Shown here: positions 6,587 to 32,907 of the stretch, one piece after another
Layout: each line of letters starts with the position of its first letter
Position numbering within the stretch: the first letter of the stretch is position 1
DNA from: Periconia sp. R9002
Lineage: Eukaryota > Ascomycota > Dothideomycetes > Pleosporales > Periconiaceae
DNA: 35,928 bases
Direction: 5' to 3'
Assembly: GCA_023627715.1 (NCBI GenBank)
Contig: JAMAHW010000057.1
Coordinates: 1 to 35,928 of the forward strand
Made by a program: the position numbers and the translations under genes
The notes under the pieces: generated by a model
Seen by the model: the letters and a program-made list of their open reading frames with translations, nothing else
Told to the model about the DNA's origin: nothing
The model's database searches: none

Positions 6587-8142
6587 TCAAACTAACGAGA
6601 TACCGCCTTCCTCCCCTTCTGTATCGCTGTCTACATCAAGCAGAATAGTACTGGAGGACGAAGCAGTGGCATCGTCTGACTCGATGCCACCATAGTCACT
6701 GCTAGCATTGGCTAGCACGTCAGTATATCCTTCCTCGTCTTCCATGATTGAGGCAGCATCAACCTCCCGTGTGCCAAATTGGGAAACAGAGATGCCAGTC
6801 GTAGAGTCAGGGTGAACATATATTGGACCCGCTCTGTCGATAATTTGTCTTAATGCGTCTCTGCGGATGTCTTGAATCATGAGATCCAAGATGTTTCGGA
6901 ACTCCTCGCTATCAGGTACGCCAGGTGGCTGCCAGGCTGTATAGATCTTGTGGTGGGAATTAGGTTCGACGAATCCACCTGGGTGATGGCGGAAATACAG
7001 AAGGCAGCAAAAACATGCAGGCTTACTGCATGCAATGTACTTGTCACGATTCGCGAATTCTTTATCGTTTTGGTGAAAATGATGAAGTACTTGGACCTCG
7101 GCATGAACTCGTGTTGGTTTCTTCGCTTCGGCATAATCCTTTCGGAACCTCTCTGAAACGGGAAACAGTCTGTCAAGATGTGCTAGAGCCTGTCGATAAT
7201 GTTCAGAGTCCGGTGATTCCGCAGGTAACATCCGTCCTAATGCTCGTTCTGCGGTTGTGGCATTTCGAATTGGTGGGCGGCTGATGGTCAGCTTTGGGGG
7301 TATAGGTATAGCCCGTACGCTGTAAGACTCTAGAAACACCGTCACCTTAGGCGTGTATGAAGCAAGAGCTCTTGCAGACCGAGCATGATGACCCAAGCGA
7401 CCGATGTCATGACGAGCTGCTGCGCATATTGCCGGTAAACTATCGCGGCTAGTTCCGTATAGTGGATTGCATGCCAGTTCTGCTAATCGACGCGTGAACT
7501 CGGAATGCCCATTGGCGTGGGCAAATTCAACCAGAGTGTGTGGGTCTTCTTCCGCAAGACTATGGAGTTTCTCTTCCCAAATTGCTATAGGATCGGCTAA
7601 TCAACGCAAGTTAGTACTGAATTGGTCTATACAAAGAAGGTGCAGAACTCACAGATCGCAGCATCCGCCCAATTTGGAAATGTTTTCAACTCCTCAAAAC
7701 TTGACAATAAGAACCTTGAGTAGGTCTTGATTTTTTCATGTGAGAACGTTACACTGTGTCTGAAAATATCTGCCGATAAACGTTGAACATCTTTGTGCTC
7801 ATGCCATTCCCCTAGTGTTGCTAGTAGCTTTTTAAGAAATGGAACGATTTTTTTTTGTGGACATTTATTTGCTGCAACCCAATATATGTGACTTTGAGGT
7901 GTTTGTTCAAGACCAATAGCTGTAACTGTATCACCCCCCTTCTCATGATCACAGAGGAAAGCTAGCTCGTCCAGAAATTTGCGTTGTAGTTGCGAGGCAT
8001 TCAAAGAGGCGATCTCTTCAGCTGAGGGTGACGTCTTGTGAGTATGCTTGCCGCGAGCCTTCCCGAGAGCAAAAAGAAGGCCAAGAGGCTCATAGAATCG
8101 ATGCAAATATTTGGTTGAAACAACTGGTCGTCTAGCGTTCAT
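6587..8142 (-). CDS. OTT_1508-like deaminase-fold protein
   Basis: Two exons, 8142-7653 and 7596-6587, are split by a 56-nt intron (GTGAGT, TACTAAC branch site, TTAG) and encode about 499 residues. The N-terminal part contains FLDELAFLCDHEKGGDTVTA and WVAANKC, which I recognise from fungal proteins carrying the OTT_1508-like deaminase domain. The C-terminal half holds the zinc-binding signature of that fold: HAE at about 328-330, then SKPACFCC at about 354-361, so H, E and both cysteines of the CxxC are kept. The tail is acidic and Ser-rich. Family members are predicted nucleotide or nucleic-acid deaminases; the substrate is unknown. The start is the first ATG of the exon and a further upstream exon is possible. 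The gene ends only about 40 bp from the RIP block yet is itself not RIPped. Confidence 0.8.
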
Positions 8143-9447: not shown

Positions 9448-10571
9448 ATGCACCGTCCTGATCCTATAGCGATTGGAAAAGAGATGAAGAGACTGCTGGG
9501 CAAATCGCCGCGAAAAGTAGCATCTACGTCTATGGCCCCTATAGAAACCGAAGCTACTACTGGTACGATATTAATAAAAGAGTCTTTGTGTTTTGCCCTT
9601 GCTAACATATTTAGGAGGCGTCGACCTAGACTTGGTCATGGCTGGAGTGTCTTTCTCCCAAGGTGTGTCATCGTGATGCTTCGGCTGGTGCACGACAATT
9701 AAAACTCACATGGCTAACAGACTTTGGGTTGTGGTTTGGAAAATCAATTTTTGAGAGCCTCCTAGCTGAAGTCGTTCAGAAGGAGCATCTTGGAGACACA
9801 GCTGTCACTCTAGCCGTATGTGAGGTCACATGCAGTCGTATACGGAGCCTCAGGCTAACATTTTATAAGGACGTGCTAGAGCTGATGGTAGATATGTACT
9901 ACCTGGATGTCACAGAATTTTGCAGGGAGCGAACGGTCCCTCAGCAGACCTACAAAGACTTCTATCGTTCCATACACGATCGTCGTTGCGCTACGAGCGA
10001 CGCCGACTGGGAGGCGTTCCGCCAACAGCTGTCTTCCAATATTGCGATCAGCTGTGAGAGGCTGCGGAACGAAAAAGTCCCAGAGCTGCATGGCATCTCG
10101 TTATCGACGCCATCGGAGACCTCTACAGCTCTTACTCCAACGAGCGATGCTAGAAGTCGGGCATCTTTCTCCTCCTCCTCCTCCTCCTGCTCCATTACGT
10201 CGCTTGTCACTTCGCACCAACGACATTCAGCTGAGAGTCCATCTACGATAAAAGATACTGCGCAAAATCAGTCAACGTCGCAATCCCAAGCATCGCAACC
10301 TCACGCGCTGCAGCCTTTGGCGAACTCCGCCCCAGCGCCTCAAACTGCTGTCAGCATGCATCGATACACCTCTGTGTTGAACGAGCATGCTGCTCTTCAG
10401 GGAGAGAAGTTGACCTACGAAAGGAAACAATTGAGCGAATCCCCCTCATCTTGGCGGTGCACCGCCACTTTCGGCGAGATCTCCGGGGTGGGGATAGGGC
10501 GTAATACGACACAGGCGAAACATGCAGCATCTAAAAAAATCTGCGAACTCATAGATTTACCGGTTCTCTGA
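9448..10571 (+). CDS. Protein with C-terminal double-stranded-RNA-binding domain
   Basis: The last 70 or so residues form a clear dsRNA-binding domain: YTSVLNEH at its start, then WRCTATFG, GVGIGRNTTQAKHAASKKI with the basic Lys/His-Ala-Ala-Lys helix that contacts RNA. Before it lies a low-complexity Ser/Thr/Gln region with a TCC-repeat-encoded serine run (about 10165-10190), and an N-terminal helical part I do not recognise. The long frame has no early ATG, so an upstream exon is needed. ATG 9448 with exon 9448-9562 joined to 9721-10571 keeps frame (GTACGA donor, CTAACAG acceptor; about 321 residues). A donor near 9663 is an alternative. Its position close to a Dicer-like gene suggests a role in RNA silencing, but this is inference. 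Confidence 0.65.
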
Positions 10572-13055: not shown

Positions 13056-16000
13056 TCACTCAGCGTCTCGTCCTATGGCCAGCGCCTGGACTGCTCTGTG
13101 CGAGGCCAGTATTGACGCCTCGTTCCTGTTCTTGCAGTTTTCGGCCCTCGCAATCTCTGTTCCATCCACAGTGACCTCACAACTAAAGCTACAGTCGCTG
13201 CTACGCTGGCTTCGTACTTCGGCCAGAGGAGCAAGCTTTTGTAATGCGCTTCGTGGATGTGCAACGCCATAGTCTGATCTCACCATACGCTGTATGTGCG
13301 AGGATATCCCTATTGTCTCCAAGAACTGTTGGCATGCGCTCCAGTCTTCTCCAGAATCCACATATATCGCGCCGATGACACTCTGTACAAGGTCAGAGTA
13401 GAAGCCCTCGGGTTGTAGCTCTGCCAACGTGACCCAAGGATAGGAACGGCCACTGTGCATTTGCTGTTCAAGGCGCCCGCAGAGACGACGGTAGCGCGTG
13501 TTGCAAGCTTCGAGCGCTTCGCCCAGTTCTTTGGATTCGTATCGCATATACTTCCAGAGTGGCATAACCTCAACACGCGGAACCTGTCGAAATTGTTTGA
13601 GCGTAACTGTTTCAATGCTGAAAACTTTGCGTGGGATGCTGTGCGTCATGCAGATGTATCCAAGCATGTTAGAGTTAACAACTGCGGCTCTAATCTCGGT
13701 CATTCGGCCTTCTGACAGCTCTTCGACATGTTCCATGAGAGCTTTAGCGACGAGAAATCCAAGAACAGCATCTCCAAGAAACGCCAACCTTTGATAAGAC
13801 TCCTCACTCCCATGTGATGCACAGGATGGATGCGTTAAAGCTTGCAGTAACACTGTAATGTTTCCAAACTGGTGTCCAGTCAGCTGCTGTAGTTCTTCTA
13901 CTTCACACCTTGAGAAACCAACACCATGAGGCATTTCAAAGGTTGGTCGCTCGCATCGAATTTCTGGTATGAAGATTCCAATACATGACCTGGCAAGACC
14001 GTGCCCAGCATCAAGGTATGCAGCTGCAAATAGAGCCTGTGAAACATCTGCCAAAGTCTTACTGCTCATTTGACGTTTCCCGGGTGAACAGTTTGCATCC
14101 GAGATACGCGGTAATGCCCAATTACTCGTCTTTGGTGCCTTAGTCAGGATGTACTGATCGAGATGTAGGCTTAAAGCTGCATTAGCAAGGCTTGCGTTAG
14201 AGATAAGATTATCCCTATATTGGCTAAGCCATCCAGCCGGCCAGTTGACATGATCAGTGAAAACTTGTGTCGACACCACGATCTTCAAAACCGCGTCCCC
14301 GAAGAATTCGTACCGTTCGAAGTTTAAATGCGCATCCGCAGAAGGTGCAGTGAGTGCCGTGACGATGCGTGCGGCATTGTGAAATTTGCATGTTGGAAGA
14401 ACTGACATCTGCAATAGACCTGCAACCATGAACTTCTCAACCTGTCCAACGACGCGAGTCATGACTTCGCCTACGTCGATCAACGGAGACTGCGAAAAGA
14501 AGTCTTGTCCATCGTCGAAATCAAAGATATACACGAAGTCAGGATTTGCCACGTCGTCCTTTGGGCTTTCGCTTGATAGGTATAATGCTGCCATTCTTTG
14601 CCTTAGCCTCTCTAGCTCTTCAAAGGTGATTGTTAATTTCTTGGTATCAGATGCGAATGTCTGCTTCAGCGTGATGCCTGTGTGCTGCTTCGAGGTAGAT
14701 AAAGGCATTGCCGGAATCGACATTGGTGTGATGAATGAGATATGAAATGACGAAAAACCTTCTAATCGATTTGCCTCTACTTGAATCGTGGTTTTGCAAA
14801 TTTCGGGTGAAGACCATGTATTTGCCATTAGTCTCCACGGCTGTATATGCTCATCAACCTCTATTATTGAAGGCAGATCTTGGCAGCGCTTTTGTATATT
14901 AAGGATGCTAGGCAAAAAATTATGGTTGACAAGTTCAGCATTGTGAAGAGCTTTGTAGCATTCGTACGCCGCAGCCTTGGATGCTGCCCGTTCTGTACGA
15001 TATTCTCCTCGGGCCAGGTAAGATCGGGGGAAGGATCCTACACAATTTGGAAGCGCCACTCTTGCGGCCAAGAGCCCGAGGCCCTTTCTTGAGCTACTCT
15101 CATGGATCCAGAAGTTTGGGTTCGTATCGACAAACGGCTGCTTGGGCAAGGTATCGCAGAAATGGTGCAGGTGAGCCTTGGTCGCTTCTGCAGTCAGCAT
15201 AGCTCTACTAAACATCAGCAACGTAACTTTGAAGTCGACACGTGAATCATTACCCTGTCAACCCATCGCGAAGAGTGAGATCCAAACTTTCGTCCTGATC
15301 TTCAATCGAAAGAACTGTCTCTCGTTCTCTCTTTTCATCTTGACACAAACGGGTAACTTCTTCTTCAAGTTGGATCCAGCGATCAGTTCTAGTATTCGCG
15401 GATGTACAGAGCTGCATGATAACAAATTGAGAGTGTTTCTTCCGTGCACGGCCACGCCGCTGTATGAAAGATTTCAAATTCTGGGGTGGATCGAAGCATA
15501 TGACGAGATTGCATGCGGCAACATCGATACCTTCTTCTAGTACGTCTGTAGCGATTATGATGTGTTTCTTCCTGACACGGAAAGCCTCCAAGGATTTCGT
15601 TTGCGATTCCAGGTCGAGTAACTCGTGGATGCCGACTTTTCTCTTCACGGTGTTTGAAAGGCCAACAAAAGTCGCAAATTTGAACCTCTCTGCTGTCTGC
15701 GGATGCGTCGACAAGATCTGAAATAGCATACTGACGACGACACGTTCTTTCACAAATATGACACCTGTCGTGTCAAGTCGCTGCTTGCCGACGAGATTGA
15801 CCAACTTAACAGCTTTGTCGGATAGCGCGTCAGGGTGGCCAACCAAGGTCGGAATTATCGTATGCCTCGAACCGGACTGATCAAAGTATTTCGCTAGAAG
15901 TTTGCTCAAGACTTCATCGCGATGAGAAGCAATCTTTGTCAAGATTTCAGTGTTGCCAATGTAGAGCTCGTTTGTTGTCTGGATGAAGTAATCGGTTGCC

Positions 16001-17125
16001 CATGGTCCAAGTTCCTTATGGATGTGTCCTGCTTTTCTTCCATATTGCATCACTGTACGAGCCCATCGTTTCTTGTCAGAGGGCGTGAGGGATTTTGGGC
16101 TTATTACAGGACCGTGCTGGAATGTTACTTCACGTAGGAGGTTTTCTGTGTCATTTTCTATCGCTTCTTGCAACCTTTGTAAAGTGCATAGCGCAGACCC
16201 CGGTCGTACAGGCTGCAGATCTTCCGAAAACTCGAGGCTAACAAACTGAGGCTGGTTGACATGAGTTCGCAATTCCTGGCGATACACCCGTGGGGTTACA
16301 CAAATGGAGTCGAGGTTTTTTTCGAGTTGGCTAGAGAAGTGGTTAAGAGGGTGCGATCAAGGCCGGCCAGGACTTACTGAATCTCCTGTATTTTTAATCT
16401 CCGTACTGGGCTTGCAGAGAGACCTAGGATGTGAGGCAAATCTCCCAGTCCTTTCTCTTTCTTTTGATTGTGGTAAAACTGTTGCATGATGGAGTTGGCC
16501 GCGTGTTTTCCGTTGCAATGATGGGCTTGCACTAGAGTAAGCTCAGTCGATTTGATTCAATAAAAACTTTACCTTCGTCAAAAATCAGGAGCGCTAGACT
16601 CGATAGCCGTACAAACCCATGCTGCATGGCATCTAGTAGAACGGCATGTGTTGAGATAACGATTCGGTGGTTATGCAACGCAGCGTCCCATATGCTTTGT
16701 TCGCTCCAGTAGTCGAGATTGCTAGAGCCAACCAGTAGTAGAGGGGATGTATCAGGTAAACGAGATTCAATGTATTTGTGTTGTTGCTCGCATAAAGCAA
16801 CCGTAGGAGCCAGAAACCATACGCGCTGCTTTTGTGTAAGCATGTGGTGGAAATGGTAGAATTCTCCAAACCTTATCGCTAGCACAGCGGTCAAGTTCCG
16901 CTCGAATCCTCAATACGGCTCTGGGAGCTTTGGTTAGTCCGAGCTGACCAGATAAAGCTCAAACTGCCTACATTTCAGTCTTGCCACTCCCTGTATCCAT
17001 CTGCGTTCGGCGTAAGCTTTGCGAGAGCCATTGTTCTCAGATCATCTTACTGCAACAATCACATTCTCTTTGAGGCTTCGGTCCAGCATCTCGAGCTGAT
17101 AACTTCGAGCTCGAAATTCTTCCAT
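13056..17125 (-). CDS. DCL2: Dicer-like 2 protein, intact helicase, both RNase III domains missing catalytic acids
   Basis: Seven exons (17125-17051, 17000-16972, 16920-16872, 16825-16573, 16525-16378, 16330-15254, 15207-13056) join in frame to 1260 residues, slightly short for fungal Dicer-like 2. Helicase: MDTGSGKT at 26-33, APTVALC, DEAHHC at 134-139, SASP at 172-175, ATDVLEEG at 445-452, QRRGRAR at 475-481. Dicer dimerisation domain about 548-640. No PAZ recognised. RNase IIIa keeps E844, D848 and D931, but the fourth acid is Q934 (ADVSQ). RNase IIIb keeps D1023 and D1149, but has A1019 (RLAFLGD for RLEFLGD) and Q1152 (SDLVQ). A dsRBD-like tail lies at about 1195-1250. Family members cut viral and transposon dsRNA into small RNAs; this copy likely binds and translocates without cutting. 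The three changed codons (14037-14039, 13782-13784, 13383-13385) are not RIP-type. Confidence 0.92.
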
Positions 17126-25842: not shown

Positions 25843-27720
25843 TTACAAACCTTTCCCCCCCGTCGCATGCTCATAGTCCTGCTGCAACGGAACAACCACC
25901 CCCTGATAAAACGCCTCGCGAAACGCAGGCTCCTCGAATTCAAACGCAAACGTGTCAAACGTGCACGTTATGCACCGGAGGACCGCTCGCGCGTAGTTTT
26001 CGGATTCGTAGTTGTTGAGGTCGCGGGCTAGGCGCGTTGCGATGGAGACTTCGGTCATGCTGTCTTCTTTGCCGTCTTCGCCTGAGGGGGGTATGGTTGG
26101 TTGGTAAAGGTTGGGAAGGTTGGATGTTGGAGGGGGGAATGACTTACTGAGGTCTTCGGGTTCTCTGAATGATAGGATCGGTGCGCCGTGGGCGAGTTCG
26201 AGGAGTGCGACTCCCAGAGCGAAGACGGTTTCGTTTTTTACCAGTCGGCGCCGTTTAGCGGCGGCAGCGACTTGCGAGGCGGAGGTGAATGTTTGTGAGA
26301 CGTAGAATTGGGATGGGATGAATTTGCCCCCGTGGGTTTTTAGTAGTAGGATGTCTTTTGTTTCCCAGGCTCGAGGCAGCCAGGGTGTGTCGTGGAGTTG
26401 GAGTACGGAAGACGCTAGAGTTAGAGATAGCATGCACTTCTGTCGCGGGGATATCCTTTGTGACCCGTGGATGATGTTGTTCATGGACGCTGCTTCGGAG
26501 ACTTGTGCTTTGGACGCGGGACCCGTCACGGCGTAGACGTGATGCTGCCAGGTTTCGTCTTCGAGTACGCCCAGGCAGCAGTTCTGTTGGTGGCTTGCTA
26601 GCAGCGCTCTGCAGAGACTATCGATTTTGGCAGTCAGGCCTGAAGAGGGGGCGCGCTTTGGCGTAGGTCGCGAAGGGGAAGATACAGTTACGGATGGCGC
26701 AAAACGAGCCATCTTCTTTCCCGGTGTTGGCACTTGGACGGCTGTCACCGTCATCCCTGTGTTAGCCACCTGCGAAGACTCGATCTCGATATCTCGCCAT
26801 TCCCATGGTGGGGTTGAAGTAGGTTGGTGGCGCTTTTCAAAGGTCAGTAGAAAGGCGAATTTTGTTGAGTCTTCCACGCCGCCGTCTTTTCTGATGTCCA
26901 GGCGCAAATTTGCTTGGTGAGGGTGCGTGCAAGCACACGGTGAAAATCGAGAATTGAGACTATCAAAAAGCCTTTGGGCCTGGTCTCGGATATTCTGCCA
27001 GTACGCGGATTGAAGTTTGTTTTTCTTCTCGGTCTTGATAGGTTCGAGTTGGATGGCTCCTGTGGTTAGTTTCGATAACTTCTCGATATCGCGATCGATG
27101 TCTGCAAGTAACGCCCCATACTTTTCCGTGTTGAACCCGCCCCTTGTTTTCAACCAGAAGCTTTTGAAGAACTTTTTGCGCGCCTTCTCATCCACCGTTC
27201 CATCCGAGGCAACCCAAGGTGGGAGGCCGTTATTCTCCAGTTTCAGCTTCTCGCAAAAGAGAGCAATGCGTTTATTCAGCTTTTCTTGGAGGGACATATA
27301 TCGGTTATGATTCTCTCCTAGTCGAACTTTGAGTAAGGCATGTAGTTCATTGTCCTTCCACGCTTCTGTTTGCCGCTCGCTTAGCAGCGCTCTCATCTGA
27401 CTGTCTGGAAGATTGAGCGGGCCAAGGAGCTTATAGCACGTATTCATATAGATTCCGATAGATGCGTCCAGCTAAATGGATAGATCAACATTCGCCATGG
27501 CGAGGTTGTTTTCGATCTACTTACTTGAGTACTATAATCATCGAATATGATTGCGTAGTCTCGCATATTCCTCATCACTCGAATCTGTTTATGTCAGCCT
27601 TCTCTAGCAAGAGTACGAGGAGCTATCATTCAAACTCACGCCATCGCTGTAGTGTTCCAGTGCAGATATTATGAGAGGAATCGAACCCAACACGACGCCC
27701 GCAACCTCAAAGCCGGACAT
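25843..27720 (-). CDS. HeLo-like N-terminus with DUF7580-type pseudokinase-like C-terminus
   Basis: Four exons (27720-27640, 27584-27525, 27471-26148, 26081-25843) join in frame to 567 residues. The N-terminus (MSGFEVAGVVLGSIPLIISA) has the hydrophobic start and helical pattern of fungal HeLo-like/DUF7580 proteins linked to programmed cell death and incompatibility. The C-terminal half looks like a degenerate kinase fold: LASSVLQLHDTPWL resembles a worn catalytic loop and VFALGVALLELAHG a kinase subdomain IX, but no HRD or DFG is visible. The last intron (26082-26147, 66 nt) has no in-frame stop. The gene is divergent from the ankyrin/ZZ gene, with only 190 bp between starts. A cell-death effector role is inferred from family and context, not shown. 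Confidence 0.8.
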
Positions 27721-27910
27721 GATTCCCACTCTTTATCACGCAAAGCCATGAGGGTGTAGGTGGACGAAGGCTGAAAGCTCCCCGCACTCCCAAAAAGGCC
27801 CCCGTGCACGGACCAGGGTGCATGATAGAACCTTCCCCACCTTCAGCCTTGCGTCTTGACTCTTCAGATCAGTCACATCCCTCTTCGAAGGAAGCAAAAA
27901 TGTGAGGATC
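27721..27910. promoter_or_regulatory. 190-bp shared bidirectional promoter
   Basis: The start codons of the DUF7580-type gene (minus) and the ankyrin/ZZ gene (plus) are separated by only 190 bp, so both promoters must overlap here. No clear TATA box or operator is visible. The spacing predicts co-regulation. Confidence 0.55.
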
Positions 27911-30900
27911 ATGGCAGAGCTCGTCTCATCTGCACATGCGCGGTGTTTCCTTGCGTTCGAGTCCCTTATCAAGGCACTCCAGCGGCCAGATCATGACTTC
28001 GACGACCAGATCCGCTTGACAGAGATTCAGAACGAGTTCGACAAATATACCATCTGGGCAGGCAATGTTGGTGCTGCGCATTCCGGGAAAAGGTTCAAAA
28101 TCTCCTTGGACTATCGTCTACGAGAAGCTTCGTTCTTGAAAGAACAGGTTTTACGACTTCTGGCAACTCTGGAAGGGAGGCTTTCAACTGCAGCCGGATT
28201 GGTTCGGGGTGATCACGAACTATCTGACGATCAGAGCGAAGGAACGGATTCTGAGACTTCTACTTCTGATATCGAGGCAAAATCATACCATGACGGGGAA
28301 GCATCCGAGGATTCTTCGTGGGAGATCTCATCTGACGATTCGAATGATGAAGATGGATCCTCTAGGTCTAATCAGAAGGCCGTTCCGAGGTCTGCTGGGA
28401 GAGTATCAGAGATCGCATCGAAACCTGAAGGCAGCACTCCCCCGTCGCACATGTCAAGATTGTTAGACTCCATCGAAATCACCATTGCCTACCTTTATCG
28501 ACTCCCCTTGAGAAAACCTGCACCTCTCGACCGCATCAAAAACAAATCTTTTCCTGATTCGGCATTGTATCAACACTTCGATGTCTTATACGTTAAAGAC
28601 AAGTTTCCAAACCTCCAGCCGCAAGCTGCAATGCGGCTGGGGAAGATGATAACGCGACGCCGGCAAGTACTTTATTACCGCGAAGCTCATAATCAAAATC
28701 TGGAGGTTACTAGGGTGCAACCCGAGGTGGCGACCGAATCACATGACCCACCCCCATCTTCTGTCTACAAAGGCAGACCAAAAGTGAACGTCGAAGACCG
28801 TGGCAGTCAATTAGCATCGAGCCAAGCCCCCAGCAGTCACTTTACGCTGCACTCGAAAGCAACAACCGTACGATCTGGGGATTTAAAACTCCTTGCTTCT
28901 AAGGATAATGCAAATGCCCTATTTGCACCCTCCGTCGCTGAGTCAAAATCATCCATGGCAAGTAGCTATGCGGGGAAAGATCTCCGCGTTGACGTTCCTT
29001 CGCGTCCTAGGGACGAGAATGGTCAGGAACTCGAACAATTTGAATGTCCTTACTGTCTGCTAGCCACGAACATTACTACTGGTCAAAAATGGAAAAAGCA
29101 TGTTCTGGAAGATCTTAAGCCTTATGTGTGCACGTACGGCGATTGCGAACTGTACGACCACTTTTTTGATAGTCGAGATACGTGGTTCAGGCACGAGACC
29201 CAGTACCATCGGACGAAATGGTCTTGCAATATTGATGGACATACAGAGTATGATTCAGAAGAAGACTTTCTCCTACACATGCGCGCAGATCACAATCGCA
29301 GGTTAGACGAGGCCAACTTCAACCTGGTGAAACATCAATTCCAAAAACCGACAAAGAGTGACCGAGGAACGTGTAATTTGTGTCATCGGCAATCAAAGAA
29401 TTTGAGAAGCCATGTCTCCCGACATCTTCAACAGATGGCTATTTTTGCACTCCCGCGAGCCAATCATACATCTGGCAGTGGGCATGCGGAGCGTGACTCT
29501 CACTCTTCAAGATTTAAAAAGGATGACAGCGACGAAAGTAGATCGTCTAATAGTGGCTCAGTCGACACAGATGAACCTCCTGACCAGCAGTCAGTTCCAA
29601 AGAACTTGGAATCTGAAACGGCCGACTTGGAAAACGATCTTGAAAGCGATTTTGATGAGGGTGACCCCATCCCTGACGATATGGGAGGCCAGGGTTGGGA
29701 CAATGTCACCGACAAATTCTCCAAGGCTAGACAAGCAGCTTTCAGAGACTTACGCATACTGATGCTCCGGATGAGTGACAAAGGCCGGCTTCAGATGTCG
29801 TCAATGCTTGAAAAGATGCACATTGACACCCGGTATGTTGAAATCCGGGTATACAGTTATTCGTTATTGAGACACTGATCATTTACTGAAATCCCTCTGA
29901 TTGTATTGAGCTGACTTCGTACTCAATATCTAGGTATGAAGACGAGGACATCCTCGTGGAACATCTTAAGAAGGTGGATGTAGTAATTATAGGGAATGTC
30001 CTCCTCAGCTGGCTTGAACTCAGCTCAATCGTTGGTCGAATTCGCGAGCGGACACGCGTGCCAATTATTGTTATAGGCGCTTCGGCACAAAGTGTAAAAA
30101 CACTTCAGGGTACGTATAGTGAGATAGAATGCTGGCTCGTGAATCCCAGTCAGAGCGATCTCGAAGATGCTCTGGGGAGACTGTGTCAATGGGCGCCGGC
30201 TCCGCCTCATTGGCGACCAGCGACCCCAACCAGATCAACCCCACCTCCGATTCCCGCCGGAACCGCCGAAGAAGCTCTGCTTAGGATTCTGCAACAGCTA
30301 GAAAGCTTTGCAGACCTCTTCAATTGCGCTGTTATCAACCGTGGATTCTATCGTGTCTTCAAAAGAAACGAGCTGGACCTGATGAAACGTACACTATGGA
30401 AGATGTCACCACCTGCTTGGGAGTATCGCGAAACCTGCTATGCGCTAGATTGGACTGAAGAAGAAGACACTCCGGCGTCTTATTTCCGAAGTTATAAACA
30501 AGGCATGGCAAACTTTGCTCAGATAAAAGGGTTAATCAAAAGCCAGTGGAGAATATACAATCCGCCCCGTATCATTGCTGATTTTGACAGCGTAGACCCA
30601 GAGATACGTAGGCGCGTGGATGATGCACTCTGGAGGATTGAGACCTTCTGCAAACTCTTTGCTTGGCGAAACTACGGTCCAGGTAAATTTAATGGGCGAG
30701 ATATGACTGTCCAAATAGATTGGCTACACGGCGGTATCTTGGCTAAGCTGTCCCAGACTGTTGACGATGTCAGCGTGGTGGAGCTGCTTGAGAGACTTCC
30801 AACATGTTTTGGGAAGGGAAATGCTGATTTGACGTCCGAAACACTAATGGATATACTTTACTTGTGGCATGATATAACTGAGCTTCTTCCAGCGATTGAT

Positions 30901-32907
30901 GGTGATACAGTCGGAGCACGGTCAGATGAGATCTCCGATAAGGTTGACATGGGAAACCACGATTTATACCATCGCACCAAGAAATCAGGTGAGAATATAC
31001 AAAAAACGGTTTCTAGTATCTTACTGACAACAAAAAGCAAAATGGCGCTTCTTGCTCGTAACGCATGGCTTCTCTGTTATTATCAAAGCCCATCAACTAT
31101 GGGAGCGCCCGGATTTTTCTATTCTAGATGTCATCCCCGAGAACGACCTTACTGCCTGGAGATCGTCCACTTCTAGTAGCTCTCTTGCCGACTTTCTCCG
31201 AGTGCCTATTCTCTATGCCTACGAAGATCGACTGAATGCAGCTCCCCCCGACCCCTCACCGTTTGTTAACGCGCTCCGGGTGGCTTCGTATGAAGGCCGT
31301 GAGTGGGCAGTAAGGCAGCTCATAATTCTTGGAGCAGATGTAAACTCCATCAGCGGTCATGATCAGTACTTCTGTACTGCGCTTTTGGCCGCTTCATCTC
31401 AAGGCCATTCCAACGTGGTCAGATTGTTGCTAGATAAAGCGGCCGACACCACTGTGACAGATAAGGACGGTTGTACACCGCTTCATCTGGCATGTAGCCA
31501 GGGGTCATTGGTCGTGGTGAGGTTACTTCTCGAGCATGGAGCAGACGTCAGTAAGGTACAAGAGGAAGGGTGGACATGTCTCCATTACTCATCGAGGAAC
31601 GGTTCAGTCACGAACGTAGTACTCTTGATAGAGGCCGGGGCAGATATAAACGCGACCACAGACGAAGGCTGGACACCTCTTCATTTTGCAGTTTGGAGGG
31701 GTGAACCTGATGTCACCAGGATATTGATTAAAGCTGGAGCAAATGTGAATGCGATGACACACCAAGGCTTGACATCTGTTCACCTCGCAGTCGACGGCGG
31801 TGAACCCGAGAGTTTCAGGCTATTGCTTGACGCTGGAGCAGACGTAAACTGGAAATCCCATTCCGATTTGACGCCACTAAACTACGCAGCTAACACTGGG
31901 GATTGCGATGCGGTCAAGCTGCTGCTCGATCATGGGGCAGATGTGCAAATAGCAAACGATCAAGGCTGGACGCCACTCATTACAGCTGCAGCTAAGGGTC
32001 ATCTCGACATAGTCAAACTGCTAGTAGTAGTGGGGGCTGACATGGCGGCGGCGAACCATTACGGCCGCACAGCACTCCACGTAGCCGCAACTAATGGCCA
32101 CATCGATTTGGTCAAATTTCTCTTCACGTGTGACGGTTTTCAAGTCAACAGCCTCGATCCAGTATTTGGCACCTTCTTGAACTCCCTTGCCTTCCTGGGG
32201 CACACGGATCTTTTACGAATGGCCTACGAGCAATGCAACGCAGATAAGGAGCTACATGAGCCACAACGCCGGAACCCTCTTCATCTGGCCGCGAGCGGAG
32301 GTCATCTCAATACTTTCCAATATCTCATGAGCCTAGGTTTCGATCTAAAAGCTAAGGACGAGAAAGAAGACACAGTGTTGGCATATGCCTGTTTGGGAGG
32401 TTCAGTGGAAATCGTAGACATATTGCTGGAGCATTATAATCCCGTTTCTGATATTCCTAGCGAGGCATATCCGGGCCGCACTGGGACACAATGGACACCT
32501 CTGCATTGGGCTTGCAAGGCAGGGAACCAGGAAATCGTCAAAAGACTGGTCGATGCGGGTCATACCAACGAAGTGTGCGTGATCCCGGACTATGGGTCTT
32601 GGACCCCTCCACAAATTGCCGTTTTCCATGGACATGGGGTCATGCTTCTCGATGGATTCCACTGGAGTCATAGTACCGGTAGACCTCACCTCGACTTCAC
32701 GTGCGATGGATGCAACTACGTAAGTCCTCATTCCAAACCCTCGGCGACGAGAAAATTGCACTCACAAATTATTTTGCGCTCTAGGTGATATACGGCACCC
32801 GTTACAACTGCAAGACCTGCAGTAATTTTGACTACTGTTTCATGTGTTATCCTTTGTTGAAAAATTTACACAAGTCTCACGAATGGGATCTGGTCGAACC
32901 TACCTAA
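27911..32907 (+). CDS. Large zinc-finger, ankyrin-repeat and ZZ-finger protein (NLR-like sensor architecture)
   Basis: Four exons (27911-29832, 29934-30988, 31038-32719, 32785-32907) encode 1593 residues. Order: an uncharacterised N-terminal domain (1-100); an acidic Ser-rich linker; a fungal C2H2-like zinc-finger block at about 376-515 (CPYC, CTYGDC, CNLCHRQ, HVSRHLQQMAIFALP); a segment at about 641-730 (VDVVIIGNVLLSW, VPIIVIGAS) that looks like a degenerate receiver-type alpha/beta domain; an unrecognised helical part (740-1060); about twelve ankyrin repeats at about 1066-1510 (such as GCTPLHLACSQG); and a C-terminal ZZ finger at about 1546-1580 (CDGC..YNCKTC..FDYCFMC..H..H). The parts fit fungal repeat-sensor proteins, which recognise partners through ankyrins. 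There is no NACHT/NB-ARC domain. Intron 2 uses an AAG acceptor. It is paired divergently with the HeLo-like gene. Confidence 0.85.

Follow-up and report, generated by a model that had tools for sequence, protein, structure and literature searches.

Can a Dicer that has lost its means of cutting RNA still be worth keeping? The question arises in the fungus Periconia sp. R9002, where a contig of 35,928 nucleotides (nt; GenBank JAMAHW010000057.1, assembly GCA_023627715.1; this whole stretch is called the window) encodes a DCL2-type Dicer-like paralogue on its reverse strand at 13056..17125. Three of the eight metal-binding acids in its two RNase III domains are gone, the same losses are fixed across a clade of relatives, the motifs of its helicase are intact, and the genome also carries canonical DCL1 and DCL2. 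We regard the protein as probably a conserved pseudo-Dicer that selection has kept as a double-stranded RNA (dsRNA)-binding, ATP-using helicase, and its likeliest job would need no cutting.

Active sites of the two RNase III domains

The gene reads as one unbroken frame. Script-based splicing joins seven exons (17125-17051, 17000-16972, 16920-16872, 16828-16573, 16525-16378, 16330-15254 and 15207-13056, all on the reverse strand) into 1261 amino acids (aa) without an internal stop, and all six introns are GT-AG and 43-51 nt long. Splicing was predicted from the sequence rather than from transcripts, and the start codon, picked by family likeness, is putative. Residues are numbered here on the 1261-aa model. 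A first-pass annotation of the window had the right sites and codons but gave residue numbers one too low (1019/1152 for 1020/1153), presumably from a different start or splice model.

By descent and architecture the protein is a member of the Dicer family. Pfam recognizes DEAD, Helicase_C, Dicer_dimer and two Ribonuclease_3 domains, the latter as two stretches of PF00636 with 116.8 bits. It has what defines a Dicer: a DExD/H helicase with Walker A and a DEAH-type motif II, DUF283 and two RNase III domains.

Catalytic acids are missing from both RNase III domains. The eight metal-binding positions are occupied by E845, D849, D932 and Q935 in RNase IIIa (Pfam match aa 842-946; 14004..14318, reverse strand) and by A1020, D1024, D1150 and Q1153 in RNase IIIb (13350..13793, reverse strand), an acid pattern of E-D-D-Q and A-D-D-Q. 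We compared these positions across an alignment of 138 rows, comprising 21 members of the window's clade and 117 others (115 homologues and the genome's own DCL2 and DCL1). Homologues of the RNase III exon were chosen by likeness to the window, as the best 120 of 286 matches in one search and 32 in another. Q935 (codon CAG, 14037-14039, reverse strand) and A1020 (GCG within the signature RLAFLGD, 13782-13784, reverse strand) each stand where 117/117 other rows have Glu. Q1153 (CAG within SDLVQS, 13383-13385, reverse strand) replaces the fourth acid of RNase IIIb, which is Glu in 115/117 others, the rest having no letter there. The first-pass annotation had held that RNase IIIb lacks two catalytic acids within an intact frame and intact surrounding motifs. 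Both losses are confirmed by codon, Glu stands in all aligned others, and D1024 and D1150 are kept.

Two further conserved residues have changed. A869 of RNase IIIa (14235-14237, reverse strand; coordinates by arithmetic in exon 7) replaces a residue that is Glu in 117/117 other rows, and we take this position to correspond to an active-site Glu that bacterial RNase III enzymes conserve (Aquifex E64). G1146 of RNase IIIb (13404-13406, reverse strand; coordinates likewise by arithmetic) replaces a conserved catalytic Lys found in 115/117 others, the rest again without a letter. This Lys position lies four residues ahead of the second-motif Asp, matching human K1806 relative to D1810. Human K1806 sits together with E1705, D1709 and E1813 in an active site known from modelling, and a review reports that mutation of mouse K1790, termed a conserved lysine, impairs cleavage (PMC13334501; PMC8138440). 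Q935, A869, G1146 and a deletion of about 100 residues ahead of RNase IIIa were all absent from the first-pass annotation.

The loss thus reaches both domains. Because RNase IIIa also lacks its fourth acid, the protein as a whole probably cannot dice, and half-activity is less likely. Bacterial enzymes indicate what such changes do: in E. coli RNase III, E117A and E117Q are reported to abolish cleavage in Mg2+ while leaving dsRNA binding uncompromised, and the S. meliloti counterparts, including E125Q, are largely inactive in Mg2+ and cleave partially in Mn2+ (PMC6121014). The suggestion that RNase IIIb should not cut is therefore supported for Mg2+, in which we expect no cleavage, but goes too far for Mn2+, where an RNase III with Glu changed to Gln can keep partial activity.

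The same Glu-to-Gln change occurs in a plant structure. In chain A of PDB 9kby (DCL4), the second-motif acids of each RNase III domain are replaced by Asn and Gln, substitutions that we take to have been engineered to trap substrate.

The clade has also lost much of a PAZ-like region. Relative to canonical DCL2, about 100 residues are missing around aa 773-790 (14475..14525, reverse strand). The interval aa 650-845 spans 190-199 residues in 21/21 clade members, against a median of 292 (range 121-352) in the 117 others, among which only P0105 (121) and P0136 (138) fall under 200 and P0033 (224) and P0080 (234) come next. Against P0125, the closest relative outside the clade, the gap starts after aa 773 and removes 76 residues, then 15, 6 and 8. 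A P0125-led profile of the DCL2 lineage aligns the region to Arabidopsis DCL1 from residue 1272 on, where in our reading PAZ ends and the connector helix begins. From the position of the gap and the shortening of the interval, the 3'-end pocket that measures product length would therefore be at least badly reduced, with part of the region remaining. A survey of fungal Dicers defines the interval from DUF283 to RNase III as the fungal PAZ (PMC12663654). What a catalytically competent Dicer has and this protein lacks is four acids in each RNase III domain, the RNase IIIb Lys and a full PAZ-like region.

Fixation, descent and conservation

The active-site changes characterize a clade. Among the matches listed, 20 close relatives are 60-93% identical to the window's last exon. 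Counting the window, position 935 is Gln in 21/21 members, position 1020 is Ala in 20 and Ser in 1, and position 1153 is Gln in 19 and Lys in 2. All eight acids are present in 114/117 other rows, and the remaining 3 are gapped but acidic wherever aligned. Alignment with Dicer-like 2 proteins thus places the substitutions in one clade (21/21) and in none of the 117 others where aligned, and fixation of the three lost acids in that clade is firm. A base error in the assembly is ruled out because 20 other public sequences share the state or a close variant. Misalignment that would place the acids elsewhere is ruled out as well, the motif stretches of the clade being ungapped around the kept acids.

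Most of the highly conserved positions were spared. Twenty-eight positions are at least 99% invariant in the 117 others, and the clade (at least 90% of members) keeps 22 of these and loses 869, 935, 939, 1020, 1146 and 1153. Five of the six lost positions can be assigned to active sites; the sixth, Gly939, is Ala or Thr in 21/21 members, and 869 is Ala in 21/21. At the 93% level, 64/80 positions are kept. The clade thereby shows the pattern that marks a pseudoenzyme, catalytic residues lost and fold residues conserved throughout.

The loss would have occurred once, after an older DCL2 split. In a tree of 64 hand-picked rows of the 138, with three diagnostic columns removed, the clade forms a single branch (support 100/100) on a stem of 0.99 changes per site. 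Its sister is P0125 (99/91), a sequence with all eight acids, and the clade nests within a DCL2 lineage shared with Penicillium/Aspergillus, Cladophialophora/Capronia and Microthyrium. Ordinary Pleosporales DCL2, the genome's own included, is a separate branch, where the genome's copy groups with its sister from Periconia macrospinosa (100/100); this placement suggests an organism in or near the Massarineae of the Pleosporales.

The window gene is the third Dicer-like gene of its genome. The 42.9-Mb assembly (267 contigs) also carries DCL1 on contig 1 and DCL2 on contig 38, each domain with its full acids, all eight per protein. The same coexistence recurs in Paraphoma chrysanthemicola, with the altered copy P0010 beside DCL2 P0090/P0114 (at species level; strains may differ). 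DCL1, DCL2, four Piwi-domain matches without stops and a split fifth, and three matches to RNA-dependent RNA polymerase (RdRP) without stops and two with an internal stop indicate that the RNA interference (RNAi) machinery is present. Stop-containing or frame-split Piwi/RdRP matches lie at contig 1 1015423-1016315, contig 189 3329-4966 and contig 1 1358059-1359701, and are introns or broken copies. Elsewhere in the assembly are two small RNase III-like frames seemingly without catalytic residues, one on contig 77 (DRLGLLGTT and TVRAIIGAAY) and one on contig 44 (RLAILGD; the match has an internal stop).

For one species pair, the altered copy has diverged less than canonical DCL2. Between the window and Paraphoma chrysanthemicola, 531/693 residues of the altered protein are identical (76.6%), against 403/808 (49.9%, P0090) or 394/808 (48.8%, P0114) for canonical DCL2. 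Tree distance is 0.31 for the altered copy and 1.16 and 1.17 for DCL2. The two fungi belong to different suborders: Paraphoma is in the family Phaeosphaeriaceae, Periconia in the suborder Massarineae. RNase IIIa (85.0%) and RNase IIIb (82.8%), the domains that lost the acids, are the best-kept parts, and the linker is the worst (65.9%). The invariant fraction across the 21 members is 0.38 for DUF283, 0.35 for IIIa and 0.40 for IIIb, and far lower, 0.11, for the linker. Such conservation would not fit a decaying gene, though horizontal transfer could mimic it.

The gene is neither a sequencing error nor a product of plain decay. The first-pass annotation had already argued against simple decay, and its argument gains from changes fixed in 21/21 clade members found, in a protein conserved around the changed sites. 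We rejected a pseudogene on the intact frame and the conservation. Damage by repeat-induced point mutation (RIP) was likewise rejected. The coding sequence has no RIP-like bias (TpA/ApT 0.64 and (CpA+TpG)/(ApC+GpT) 1.33, with 1.09 and 1.01 for the whole window), and the Glu-to-Gln and Glu-to-Ala changes are transversions, not the RIP transition. Scans of viral contigs and of bacterial and archaeal genome contigs found no DNA of relatives.

The helicase motifs were not lost along with the catalytic acids. Helicase domain 1 (DEAD/ResIII, aa 8-177; exons 1-5, 16378..17125, reverse strand) has intact Walker A (MDTGSGKT) and DEAHH motifs, and Helicase_C (Pfam, aa 418-481; 15445..15636, reverse strand) has intact TDVLEEGID and QRRGRAR. 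The Dicer dimerization domain DUF283 (PF03368, aa 556-645) follows at 14907..15176 on the reverse strand, coordinates by arithmetic in exon 7. A search with the helicase exon, from which the best 120 of 408 matches were taken and 28 aligned (P0137-P0164), yielded 22 close relatives (P0137-P0158, 58-95% identity). All 22 keep TDVLEEGID and QRRGRA (motifs V and VI), P0138 reading QRRGRAW. Judged by identity, with the next match at 43%, these 22 probably belong to the same clade. Six of them were also paired with an altered RNase III exon by equal size of the source sequence. P0122 and P0229 also agree in size (4399), but with a helicase identity of just 41%, which is probably a coincidence.

Possible roles of the protein

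The changes suggest a Dicer turned from cutting to holding and moving along RNA. A DCL2-type Dicer would have given up metal-binding acids of its two RNase III domains, together with much of its PAZ-like 3'-end pocket, with purifying selection keeping what remained as a dsRNA-binding helicase with ATPase activity. With its helicase motifs intact, the protein should still be able to load or move on dsRNA at the expense of ATP, and a helicase of the RIG-I/Dicer type may load on, move along or remodel RNA. The fourth acid is changed in both domains and RNase IIIb has also lost its first acid and lysine, which suggests an RNase III pair that holds without cutting: most likely, the two domains still fold together within the chain and retain dsRNA as an uncutting clamp. 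The likeliest biological role would be cut-free sensing or remodelling of dsRNA or of RNA:DNA hybrids, comparable to that of the fission-yeast Dcr1 helicase. Schizosaccharomyces pombe dcr1-5, which is catalytically dead in RNase III, keeps its ribosomal DNA copies, in a role reported to depend on the helicase (PMC12624956). A helicase role without dicing is in our view the likeliest reading, and restraint of the active Dicers comes next.

Several observations weigh against it. Losses are not significantly clustered on the eight acids alone (3/8 vs 3/20, Fisher p = 0.21) or with two lysines added (4/10 vs 2/18, p = 0.10). They become so (5/11 vs 1/17, p = 0.022) with 869 added after seeing the data; our first active-site test took in 869 and the lysines after the changes at 869 and 1146 were known, and the stricter sets were tested later. 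Statistically, there is no more than a suggestion that the losses target the catalytic centre. All clade members share E845, D849, D932, D1024, D1150 and K928, and metal binding could still be used. Mn2+ also restores some activity to a Glu-to-Gln RNase III (PMC6121014). Helicase domain 1, whose Walker A and DEAH motifs lie in small exons, was read as intact in the window only. In S. pombe, deletion of the helicase is reported to give no camptothecin phenotype, only K38A being defective (PMC12624956). For Arabidopsis DCL2, an antiviral effect independent of RNAi reportedly requires the catalytic residues of RNase III (PMC12396379); Dicer sensing of dsRNA is therefore not always cut-free. Slow divergence, finally, could also stem from horizontal transfer.

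A more specific form of the cut-free role is possible, though we hold it doubtful. The protein may be devoted to sensing or remodelling dsRNA without cutting it, as a Dicer-derived fungal equivalent of the RIG-I-like receptors, with its RNase III dimer as a dead clamp and possibly with a neighbouring dsRBD protein. That candidate partner is an open frame with a dsRNA-binding motif (9630..10571, forward strand; PF00035, 25.4 bits, over the cut-off; gene start approximate). The frame is convergent with the Dicer-like gene, lies 2.5 kb from its stop codon and is one of at least two matches over the cut-off for this motif in the genome.

The protein may instead regulate other Dicers, a clearly less probable role than that of a helicase without dicing. 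Pseudoenzymes often act as regulators of active relatives, and an inactive Dicer could restrain or direct DCL1 and DCL2 by binding dsRNA or by engaging partners, for example Argonaute, RdRP or dsRBD proteins. A pathway to regulate exists, with eight-acid DCL1 and DCL2 and Piwi and RdRP matches, and the dsRBD frame adjoins the gene. Trypanosome editing complexes offer a parallel, since RNase III proteins that lack catalysis team up there with catalytic partners, over which they may exert control (PMC9508840). Conserved helicase motifs, however, would be superfluous for a pure decoy. Dicer RNase III domains, moreover, pair inside one chain, which makes a heterodimer of the trypanosome type less likely.

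Horizontal transfer between Pleosporales, rather than constraint, is an improbable source of the slow divergence. It would account for the contrast in tree distance between window and Paraphoma (0.31 for the altered copy, 1.16 for DCL2) and for a patchy distribution: among the matches listed (the best 120 of 286, and 32), the only named holders are Paraphoma chrysanthemicola and Paraconiothyrium brasiliense (Didymosphaeriaceae). Identity to the window nonetheless follows suborder membership, Periconia being in the Massarineae, with Paraconiothyrium (80.2%) ahead of Paraphoma (76.6%). Transfer alone would also leave unexplained why 21 copies, down to 60% identity, have an open last exon and the same lost residues.

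A residual nuclease is less probable still. RNase IIIa might act as a weak or Mn2+-dependent nickase that cuts one strand, since it keeps 3/4 acids and its lysine in 21/21 members and S. meliloti E125Q retains partial cleavage in Mn2+ (PMC6121014). Set against this are the E. coli E117A/Q enzymes, reported dead in Mg2+ in the same source, the Ala at 869 and the Ala or Thr at 939 in 21/21 members, and the absence of much of the PAZ-like region that would position the cut.

The lost catalytic residues and long stem branch might suggest an assembly error or a relic that has begun to decay. Either is very hard to reconcile with an intact 1261-aa frame, six GT-AG introns, 20 further open last-exon copies (gene callers report open frames only, so that broken copies are invisible), stronger conservation than canonical DCL2 shows between one pair of species and no RIP bias.

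The preferred reading, a conserved pseudo-Dicer at work as a helicase, would make the question of Dicer function without dicing directly testable. So far the debate over such work has drawn on mutant alleles of fission yeast and plants. Here a natural, conserved Dicer that lacks three of its acids stands beside Dicers that keep theirs, evolution having split the two functions. A Dicer seems to have been redirected to work independent of cutting and kept so across many lineages. Counts of RNAi genes by name can overstate dicing capacity, because clade members carry such names in their source annotation: P0013 is a Dicer-like protein 2 and P0010 a ribonuclease III domain-containing protein. Titles and abstract openings found in the open-licence literature gave no account of an inactive fungal Dicer shared by a whole clade, which is weak evidence of novelty. 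A 2025 survey that covers the Dicers of 1592 fungal proteomes takes up the absence of PAZ, helicase and dsRBD domains; its main text does not contain 'inactive', 'acidic residues' or 'pseudo' and uses 'catalytic' four times, never of lost residues (PMC12663654).

Neighbouring genes and comparison with known systems

A weak C-terminal dsRNA-binding motif of the protein itself (aa 1209-1254; 13080..13217, reverse strand) scores 18.1 bits with PF00035, under the cut-off of 23. Beyond the dsRBD frame lies an OTT_1508-like deaminase gene (6587-7600, reverse strand; PF14441, 73.1 bits). The stretch 25843-32788 holds a DUF7580 gene, a long gene with ankyrin repeats and a frame that by eye looks like a zinc-finger protein but has no Pfam match, a combination reminiscent of fungal recognition loci.

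RIG-I-like receptors and Dicer-related helicases are close helicase counterparts. The profile of the DCL2 lineage matches RIG-I, MDA5, LGP2 and Dicer-related helicase chains, and for neither group nor the window protein is nuclease activity expected. These receptors and helicases have no RNase III domains, whereas the window protein retains two. Conversely, Pfam finds no match to a CARD or a RIG-I-type C-terminal domain in the window protein at E up to 0.1.

Inactive or unusual RNase III proteins are known elsewhere. Kinetoplastid KREPB6-8 are non-catalytic RNase III proteins with a zinc finger and a separate catalytic RNase III partner, and such proteins belong to trypanosome editing complexes (PMC9508840); the window protein holds both RNase III domains in one chain, together with a helicase. 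Naegleria DCR3, Phaeodactylum DCR1, Albugo DCL2 and Trichoplax are listed as Dicer homologues whose ExxGD/DxxE motifs are altered in one domain or in both (PMC4791657). They are single sequences, and the relevant parts of that paper describe no conserved clade, PAZ loss or helicase retention. The Mucor R3B2 family combines an unusual RNase III signature with two dsRBDs, and the relevant passages of its description do not include a helicase (PMC4395119).

Fungal DCL2 and a fission-yeast allele are also close. DCL2 shares the domain order of the window protein, namely helicase, DUF283, RNase IIIa and RNase IIIb, and the window's clade differs from it by three of eight acids, the RNase IIIb lysine and about 100 PAZ-like residues. 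S. pombe dcr1-5 would be the functional analogue, likewise without RNase III activity and with a helicase-linked function remaining (PMC12624956). That allele was made in the laboratory, whereas the window's clade is a natural extra gene, fixed beside Dicers whose active sites are intact.

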